From contig CAKKRK010000098.1 in the NCBI GenBank assembly GCA_919902665.1, forward strand, positions 1 through 64,000: DNA of 64,000 nucleotides. Reading direction: 5' to 3'. The DNA comes from Nitrospiraceae bacterium. Its GTDB lineage: Bacteria; Nitrospirota; Nitrospiria; Nitrospirales; Nitrospiraceae. Position 1 is the stretch's first letter, and every line of letters begins with the position of its first letter. This document shows positions 10,604-16,812 of this stretch, piece after piece. The notes beneath the pieces were generated by a model. That model made no database searches. It saw only the letters and a program-made list of their open reading frames with translations, and was not told where the DNA came from. Both the position numbers and the translations under genes were made by a program.

Positions 10604-11929
10604 TCAGGCCGTGAGTTTCAGTTCGTCGGTGGAGGTCTGTGCGGCCCGAAGTGTGTCCGGTTTCTTGGCGATGATTGAGGTCAGCTTGACTGAAAAGAGC
10701 ACCAAGCCGGTGATGAGGAGGCCGAGACTCGTCCAGGTTGCAATATGGATGTAGATGGAGGTCAGCGGCACATTCCACGTGAGTGCGGCCAAGAGGCCAA
10801 GCCCCATGGTTCCGAGCGAGAGAGTGGCGATCTGTACCGATTTCCAGCGGTTCATGATCCCGTTTAGCTGATGGAGATACGGCCCGCGCTTCTTGGTATT
10901 GGGGACACGATCAGCTGCTAGCGTGATGGGTATGAAGTAGGAACACGCGCCCATGATGGCATTCACGATGAAGCCGACGAACGTCATATGTGTATAGGCG
11001 ACGAGGTGGAGTGTGCCGTACGGCAGCCGCGGGGGACTGGAGAGGTGATTCGCTCCGACCAGCACGCCGAGGATGATGGTGAACAGGAGAAAGAAGGTAC
11101 TGACCAAAAGATGGTCCGAGGCGGCGCTGCCGCTGTGGGTCGAGGCGCGCCAAGTTCCCAGCAGATTGCCGGTCCAGAGAATTCCGCCTGTGAAGAGCAT
11201 GGCGCCAGCGGCCATTTCAACCGAGACCGATGAGTTCAAGAATCCGCCGATCAAAACAGCGACACCGAGGGGCATCAAGACTATCGCTGTCTGCGCGAGC
11301 TTGGGGCTTAAGAAAGGGCGGCTCCAGATTATCGGGAGGAGATAGTGCATCATGCCGATGATGGCCAGCACCACAAAGCCGAGCACCACCAGGTGAATGT
11401 GCGCAAGCCGCATATAGCCATAGGATTCCTGAACGAACCCGAGTGCCATAATTTCTCCGAAGGCCGACCCGCCCACGAGGCAGAAGAGAGAGAGCGCGTA
11501 ATACCAAGACTCTTTGATTGAGAACTTCCAGGCCCTGCTCGCAGGGATCCACACGGTGTAGATGACGGAGGAAAATGCGGCAATCACCACGAAGCCGGCG
11601 ACGCCTACGATCAGGGACTGATGCAGCCAGAACCCCACGAGCATTCCAACCAGCCCGCTGTTCAGCGCCCAGAATGTGAGGGGATGTGAGTCTGATTCTT
11701 TTCGGTCAGCCGCGTGAGGGGGGGAGATGAATAGGAGAAATCCACCAAGAATAATCTGGGCCACACCACCGACCAAGACGGCATGGACATGAAGCATTCG
11801 GACCCATGGCGGCAGCGGAGTGCCACGAATCAGCCCGATCAGGATCGCCAACCCGAGGATGGACGCCAGCACCAGCCAGCCAAGGCCTGTGAAGCAAAAT
11901 GAGAGGGGTGGATAGGGTCGTGTAAACAT
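10604..11929 (-). CDS. Haem-copper oxidase subunit I-like membrane protein
   Basis: 441 residues with about 12 predicted membrane segments. Three segments begin with a His-containing motif followed by a Gly-rich helix and Pro: MLHVHAVLVGG, RLAHIHLVVLGF ending HYLLP, and AYTHMTFVGF ending YFIP. This pattern resembles cbb3/NorB-type oxidase subunit I and, more distantly, NnrS. I do not see the canonical CuB histidine pair WxHH, so it may not be a full oxidase. No partner subunit gene is adjacent. Role is inferred only: redox or NO-related haem protein in the inner membrane. Confidence 0.6.
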   Translation of the reverse strand: MFTRPYPPLSFCFTGLGWLVLASILGLAILIGLIRGTPLPPWVRMLHVHAVLVGGVAQIILGGFLLFISPPHAADRKESDSHPLTFWALNSGLVGMLVGFWLHQSLIVGVAGFVVIAAFSSVIYTVWIPASRAWKFSIKESWYYALSLFCLVGGSAFGEIMALGFVQESYGYMRLAHIHLVVLGFVVLAIIGMMHYLLPIIWSRPFLSPKLAQTAIVLMPLGVAVLIGGFLNSSVSVEMAAGAMLFTGGILWTGNLLGTWRASTHSGSAASDHLLVSTFFLLFTIILGVLVGANHLSSPPRLPYGTLHLVAYTHMTFVGFIVNAIMGACSYFIPITLAADRVPNTKKRGPYLHQLNGIMNRWKSVQIATLSLGTMGLGLLAALTWNVPLTSIYIHIATWTSLGLLITGLVLFSVKLTSIIAKKPDTLRAAQTSTDELKLTA

Positions 11930-14207: not shown

Positions 14208-15479
14208 ATGCGGAACAGCTTCTGGTTGAAGGTGCTCAGCGCAGCAGGTCTGTTGCTCTTGTGCGTCACAAGTTGGGTCGGTGCCGAAGAGCCGGCTGGT
14301 GCCGTGAATGAGGCGCGCTTGGTCGCGCAATATAACTACTCGATTCACATCCTGGCCATGTTGGTCGTCGGGTTCGGCTTTCTTATGGTCTTCGTCCGAC
14401 GATATGGCTTCGGGGCTACGACCGGCACCTATCTCGTCGTCGCAACGGGGATACCTCTGTACATGTTGTTGCGCGCGAATGGAGTGGTGGGGCATTCGAT
14501 CCAGGCCCATTCGGTTGAAACGCTCATGCTGGCGGAATTTTCAGTGGCAACGGCGTTGATCGCGATGGGGGCGGTGCTTGGACGCTTGCGCGTGTTTCAG
14601 TACGCGTTACTCACGCTGTTGCTGGTGCCGCTCTATGCGCTGAACGAATATTTGGTGTTGGACAATGGTTCGGGGCTGACCAAAGGGTTTCAGGATTCAG
14701 CTGGATCGATCGTCATCCACGCATTCGGTGCCTATTTCGGATTGGCCGCGTCTCTGGTGCTGACGACGGCGCAGCAGCGGAGTCAGCCGATCGAATCCGA
14801 TCCGACGTCTGATCGGTTCGCGATGCTCGGGTCCATGGTGCTGTGGTTGTTTTGGCCGAGTTTTGCGACCGCAATTGTGCCGTTCGAGCAAATGCCCCAA
14901 ACGGTCGTGAATACGATCCTGGCTCTGAGCGGGGCCACGCTTGCCACCTACTTCCTCAGCACACGTTTTCATCATGGAAAGACCTCGATGGTGGATATGG
15001 CTAATGCCGCATTGGCGGGTGGAGTCTCCATTGGCTCGACCTGTAACCTCGTGAGCCCCACAGGTGCGTTTGGGATCGGATTGTTGGCCGGTGCTTTGTC
15101 GGTCATCGGGTATGTGTTTATTCAGCCCATGCTCGAATCGAAGATCAAGCTCGTCGATACGTGCGGCGTCCACAATCTGCATGGGATGCCTGGGTTATTG
15201 GGTGGACTGATCGCAATTGTTGTGGTGCCTGGTGTCGCTGGGGTTCAACTCGTGGGCATCGCGATGACGCTTGCCACCGCAATCGTTGGAGGGGTCATCG
15301 CCGGTATGATCATCAAAGCCACAGGTACGACTGAACAGGCGTATGAAGACTGCCATGAGTTTTCCCATGTGCCGGGGCCGGAGAGTGAACGACGGGTGGA
15401 GGAGCTGGCGCTTGGAGCCAAGGCCGATATCGACGCCCTGCAAAAGGAAGTGCTTGCCCGGGCGGCGGCGCGTAGTTAA
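14208..15479 (+). CDS. Rh-type ammonia/ammonium channel (Rh50-like)
   Basis: 423 residues with a cleavable-looking signal (about residues 1-26, ending VGA) and about 11 membrane segments. It belongs to the Rh branch rather than Amt: GSIVIHAFGAYFGLAASL (first pore His) and DTCGVHNLHGMPGLLGG (second pore His) are Rh hallmarks, as are SAGS near residue 166 and the acidic C-terminal tail. By recalled family comparison it closely resembles the Nitrosomonas europaea Rh50, in the LVAQYNYSIHILAM start and AYEDCHEFSHVPGPE tail. It should conduct NH3 across the inner membrane. No glnK gene follows, as expected for Rh channels. It sits near gltBD only loosely (24 kb). Confidence 0.93.
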   Translation: MRNSFWLKVLSAAGLLLLCVTSWVGAEEPAGAVNEARLVAQYNYSIHILAMLVVGFGFLMVFVRRYGFGATTGTYLVVATGIPLYMLLRANGVVGHSIQAHSVETLMLAEFSVATALIAMGAVLGRLRVFQYALLTLLLVPLYALNEYLVLDNGSGLTKGFQDSAGSIVIHAFGAYFGLAASLVLTTAQQRSQPIESDPTSDRFAMLGSMVLWLFWPSFATAIVPFEQMPQTVVNTILALSGATLATYFLSTRFHHGKTSMVDMANAALAGGVSIGSTCNLVSPTGAFGIGLLAGALSVIGYVFIQPMLESKIKLVDTCGVHNLHGMPGLLGGLIAIVVVPGVAGVQLVGIAMTLATAIVGGVIAGMIIKATGTTEQAYEDCHEFSHVPGPESERRVEELALGAKADIDALQKEVLARAAARS

Positions 15480-15719: not shown

Positions 15720-15795
15720 TGGTGCGCCCGACAGGACTTGAACCTGTAACCTTCTGATCCGTAGTCAGATGCTCTATCCATTGAGCTACGGGCGC
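15720..15795 (-). tRNA. tRNA-Arg (anticodon ACG)
   Basis: On the minus strand, acceptor GCGCCCG pairs with CGGGCGC, D arm AGCTCAATGGATAGAGC, anticodon stem TCTGA/TCAGA around loop CTACGGA giving anticodon ACG (read as ICG), T arm with GTTCAAGTC, discriminator A and encoded CCA (15720-15722). It decodes CGU/CGC/CGA. Confidence 0.97.
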
Positions 15796-16578: not shown

Positions 16579-16812
16579 TTACTTGCCGCCCTTTTCATCC
16601 TTCTTCTCGCCGAAGGTGTCGGCATGGCCGCCCTTCTTCTCTTCCTTCTTGTCGCCGTAGGTGTCCATGTGGCCACCCTTCTTCTCTTTCTTCTCTTCAG
16701 CCATCACCACATGGCCGCCCTTCTTCTCTTCTTTCTTCTCGCCGGCGAACGCTGGTGCGCTGAAGGTCACTGCCACTGCCACTGCCATGATTGCCATCAA
16801 CATGCTCTTCAT
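16579..16812 (-). CDS. Secreted Lys/Glu/Gly/His repeat peptide
   Basis: 77 residues. A clean signal peptide (about 1-23, cleavage after PAFA) leaves a 54-residue mature chain built from near-repeats of KKEEKKGGH followed by xDTYG or similar: three GGH units and a final KKDEKGGK. About half the residues are Lys or Glu, and no fold is predicted. The His spacing could bind metal or polyanions; this is speculative. It has its own sigma-54-type promoter and terminator and stands alone, so it is probably induced as a separate response gene. No family recognised. Confidence 0.8.
   Translation of the reverse strand: MKSMLMAIMAVAVAVTFSAPAFAGEKKEEKKGGHVVMAEEKKEKKGGHMDTYGDKKEEKKGGHADTFGEKKDEKGGK

Follow-up and report, generated by a model that had tools for sequence, protein, structure and literature searches.

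Which kind of ammonium channel does this stretch of DNA encode, and what does the channel say about the organism that carries it? The window, that is, the whole stretch of 64,000 nucleotides analysed here, is part of contig C98 (CAKKRK010000098.1) of a Nitrospiraceae genome of 3.56 Mb in 240 contigs with 99.86% completeness. An earlier note took one of its genes for an Rh50-type ammonia channel and a marker of clade A complete ammonia oxidizers (comammox).

An Rh50-type channel

The gene is an intact, open reading frame (ORF) that runs from an ATG start to a TAA stop (Table 1), and its product matches Pfam PF00909 (Amt/Rh) with an E-value of 5.5e-56. The top PDB matches are structures of Nitrosomonas europaea Rh50 (NE0448; 3b9w, 3bhs, 3b9y and 3b9z; E ~1e-192), aligned without gaps over residues 31-417. 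Human RhAG (1e-68) and RhCG (1e-65) rank next, and true Amt chains reach 1e-11 to 1e-6 only. These E-values, together with conservation of the ORF in >50 relatives, exclude a chance match. Phylogeny with Rh50 and Amt sets, the check that had been proposed, places the protein inside the Rh clade and outside Amt; it is an Rh-type channel, far from Amt.

Table 1 Features of the window around the channel gene
Feature	Coordinates	Strand	Evidence
Rh50-type ammonia/ammonium channel, 423 aa	14208..15479	+	ORF, PDB match, Pfam PF00909, residue alignment
Probable signal peptide, residues ~1-26 (...TSWVGA before EEPA)	14208..14285	+	Sequence reading; homologous leader in ammonia-oxidizing bacteria and Nitrospira relatives
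tRNA-Arg(acg) gene	15720..15795	-	ARAGORN, Rfam; spacing in relatives
77-aa secreted-looking protein	16579..16812	-	KKEEKKGGH-type repeats after signal peptide
441-aa membrane protein next to thiD	10604..11929	-	Weak PF00115 (cytochrome oxidase subunit I) match

Over the full length, the window protein is 71% identical to N. europaea Rh50 and collinear with it, sharing pore residues, leader and C-terminal tail. Both pore motifs named in the earlier note, HAFGAYFG and HNLHGMPG, are present and align with HAFGAYFG and HNLHGLPG of N. europaea, and D163 and the twin histidines H171 and H325 correspond to D162, H170 and H324. The role of this aspartate and of the twin histidines is established from the N. 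europaea structures. The N-terminus (MRNSFWLKVLSAAGLLLLCVTSWVGA followed by EEPA) is homologous to the leaders of proteins from ammonia-oxidizing bacteria (AOB) and resembles a cleavable signal peptide with a putative cleavage site, in keeping with the signal peptide first proposed. The likeness of the helical tail to that of N. europaea was likewise borne out, although the tail sequence has diverged. Unlike N. europaea, the host belongs to the Nitrospirota and oxidizes nitrite besides ammonia.

Nitrification genes of the host and the role of the channel

A search of the host genome for amoCAB, hao and nxrAB found all of them, amoA in part and HAO split. Contig C120 begins with a truncated amoA (its 3' part). 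A complete amoB comes next, whose product has subunit B of ammonia monooxygenase (AMO) as its best PDB match (E 1e-166); amoC lies on C95. HAO is present as two fragments at the ends of C230 and C182, which together cover positions 1-269 of the HAO profile, with aerobic HAO as best PDB match (E 8.5e-161). NxrB is encoded on C23 (PDB 7b04, E 1e-175), and the adjoining ORF is read, from its position and sequence, as the 3' part of nxrA. The amoA and hao breaks fall at contig ends of a 240-contig draft, and we infer assembly breaks and intact pathway genes. With amoA, amoB, amoC, HAO and nxrAB, the host thus has the gene content of a complete nitrifier, as the earlier note had suggested from the channel.

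Nearly all compared AmoA of the same genus share 83-99% identity with the host AmoA fragment, one outlier (G071) sharing 81%; AmoA of the second amoA-bearing genus, g17, share 53-63%. The AmoA tree splits the two genera into separate clans with 100% support. The host-genus clan includes metagenome-assembled genomes (MAGs) published as clade A, namely RBC093 and RBC044 (PMC7305129) and JZ-3_Bin7 (PMC10284858). Judged by sequence, the host AmoA is of the clade A type, not clade B. The amoA-bearing g17 genomes carry Amt-type genes and no Rh50, the same state as published for clade B Nitrospira (PMC6311188; PMC10504367).

The window gene is the sole PF00909 gene of this nearly complete genome. Its product is very probably the only ammonium channel of its host, a clade A comammox Nitrospira, and would mainly supply ammonia for assimilation, with trimeric state, NH3 conduction, direction and role assigned by homology. 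By analogy with N. europaea Rh50, the protein would assemble in the cytoplasmic membrane as a homotrimer whose subunits each have a hydrophobic pore with a twin-histidine centre, through which NH3 would pass passively, either way along its gradient. Such a low-affinity, high-capacity channel would most likely feed cytoplasmic ammonia assimilation at fairly high ammonium and would take the place that a high-affinity Amt has in canonical and clade B Nitrospira.

Passive conduction in both directions is established for Rh50 proteins and would also suit a mainly outward role, in which cytoplasmic NH3 from urea hydrolysis and amino-acid turnover is vented to the periplasmic side for AMO and serves energy metabolism over assimilation. 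Full urea-utilization genes have been reported in related clade A comammox MAGs (PMC10284858), which adds to the appeal of this alternative; we consider it possible, if doubtful, and the sole-transporter state suggests that Rh50 is needed for assimilation too. With no other Amt/Rh gene in the genome, the channel most likely serves above all to import ammonia for assimilation. That the gene encodes an Amt/MEP transporter mistaken for Rh is scarcely credible despite the common superfamily PF00909, and was refuted by the PDB ranking (Rh50 chains ahead of Amt chains by >180 orders of magnitude in E-value), by NCBIfam Amt models far under cut-off (for example, TIGR00836, 116 bits versus 343) and by the tree, in which Amt sequences of the same genome family fall outside. 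The Amt/MEP proteins of canonical and clade B Nitrospira share ~26-36% identity with the window protein, over parts only, and likewise lie outside the Rh clade.

Neighbourhood and origin of the gene

Clade A comammox Rh50 proteins (for example, those of RBC093, RBC044, Ga0074138 and UBA2083) are ~91-98% identical to the window protein and 423-435 aa long; the window protein belongs among them and shows ordinary sequence variation only. Their frequent neighbourhood of ThiD, CsgG-like gene, Rh50, tRNA-Arg, cca and galT is also that of the window. The tRNA-Arg(acg) gene is convergent with Rh50 and lies 241 bp downstream of its stop, an adjacency that recurs in related loci: the gap is 131-554 bp in 12 Nitrospira loci, including the tail-less L037, and 3-4.7 kb in three further ones. 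Transporter-less relatives likewise have tRNA-Arg linked to cca, with no Rh50 at that site. Across clade A loci, two spacers, one from the CsgG-like gene to Rh50 and one from Rh50 to the tRNA gene, vary from ~0.2 to >4 kb, and this variable DNA is possibly an insertion hot spot. Promoter and terminator scans gave chance-level hits only.

Several other features of these loci were observed. The 77-aa repeat protein is kept near Rh50 in several relatives and perhaps binds metal, and the 441-aa membrane protein could be NnrS-like or else a divergent haem-copper relative. A subgroup of Nitrospira Rh50 proteins (L034, L035, L037-L040, L052 and L225) is ~77-83% identical, 395 aa long and devoid of the helical C-terminal tail, ending in GGH, and is encoded mostly at other genomic sites. 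G077 carries a partial second Rh50 ~1 kb upstream of the intact copy (L237, G077:C113), with the CsgG-like gene duplicated, and the two dissimilar Rh50 copies of G088 may reflect binning contamination (6%). L025 (CAADGK010000039.1), titled 'uncultured Nitrosospira sp. isolate CMX', has an Rh50 and a gene neighbourhood of the comammox Nitrospira type, and its organism name is probably mislabelled.

The Nitrospira Rh50 proteins form one clade (support 100/99) beside Nitrosomonadaceae. A topology with all AOB in one clade is worse by 0.12 log-likelihood units and was not rejected (p-AU 0.383); the tree has as its only outgroup an Rh50 with ~50% identity from a different genus in the family (G005), which sits on a very long branch. 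Acquisition from ammonia-oxidizing Betaproteobacteria, as suggested in the earlier note, is compatible with the tree, as is the alternative with a single AOB clade. The outgroup genome (genus g3) encodes this separate Rh50 plus an Amt (L222 and L236); the second pore segment of its Rh50 reads GVTNLHGWPG, and amoA, amoB, amoC and HAO were not detected in it. Among the AOB proteins found, Rh50 of Nitrosomonas nitrosa Nm90 comes nearest to the window protein with 77% identity, a value near the ~76% quoted for AOB (PMC6311188); its locus differs from the window in having none of the window's neighbour genes within the flank examined. More generally, the window's flanking genes were sought near AOB Rh50 and none was found, and a search for a compositional sign of recent transfer was negative (Rh50 GC 57.5%, window 56.2%). 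The linkage to tRNA-Arg fits a single ancestral insertion, after which the gene was lost or relocated; no integrase was noticed. We regard as improbable a more specific scenario, in which a tRNA-targeting mobile element would have brought Rh50 from an ammonia oxidizer once, into the clade A ancestor at the tRNA-Arg(acg) site by cca, with subsequent relocation or loss in certain lineages such as the hot-spring group.

Rh50 as a marker within the host genus

Rh50 was found in 53 of 79 genomes of the host genus, all 53 with amo and/or hao; among the 26 Rh50-less genomes, amo/hao genes were present in 10 and absent from 16. Fisher's exact test on this association gives p = 2.5e-10, a value that overstates the evidence because the genomes are related. 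In this 79-genome count, amoB and amoC were searched only in the amoA-negative Rh50-bearing genomes and in five canonical ones. Fourteen Rh50-bearing genomes were amoA-negative in the survey, four of them (G086, G104, G106 and G111) also HAO-negative, as would be expected if Rh50 had reached canonical nitrite-oxidizing Nitrospira and so said nothing about ammonia oxidation. This reading was rejected and has almost no likelihood left, since amoB, amoC or full-length HAO was found in all 14 and amo, hao and nxr genes are present in the genome from which the window comes; the amoA gaps are therefore probably assembly losses. Canonical genomes of the genus carry Amt, except two incomplete ones (G110, no match; G078, a weak match).

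Nine of the ten Rh50-less ammonia oxidizers (G079, G082, G090 and G096-G101) have no Amt/Rh match at all, and the tenth, G071, has weak matches only. Seven transporter-less, amoA-positive genomes group in the AmoA tree with the hot-spring clade A bin JZ-3_Bin7. G082 (2.0 Mb, 99% complete) and G079, both transporter-less, lie elsewhere in that tree, beside Rh50-bearing relatives. Transporter-less clade A genomes are not new: nearly all hot-spring comammox MAGs except JZ-3_Bin7 (G102 here) have been reported without Rh50 and amt (PMC10284858). Deep-sea clade A with Amt in place of Rh50 has also been published (PMC12903955).

The link between clade A comammox and Rh50 was reviewed in 2018 and is textbook knowledge (PMC6311188; PMC10504367; PMC7305129), and the window protein is an ordinary member. 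The proposed division of Rh for clade A and Amt for other lineages agrees with that published pattern, with the deep-sea genomes as an exception. As a marker, Rh50 held in one direction, with amo/hao in 53 of 53 Rh50-bearing genomes, and failed in the other: because ten amoA-positive genomes of the host genus are without it, Rh50 is a good, not universal clade A marker and is not obligatory. From the Rh50-less, transporter-less clade A genomes it follows that some lineages can grow as comammox without this channel. The published rule is thus checked quantitatively over 79 genomes of one genus, a result useful for annotation and unsurprising to specialists. Within the genus, the presence of Rh50 implies ammonia oxidation and its absence does not exclude it, and the Rh50 found here marks its source as a complete nitrifier.
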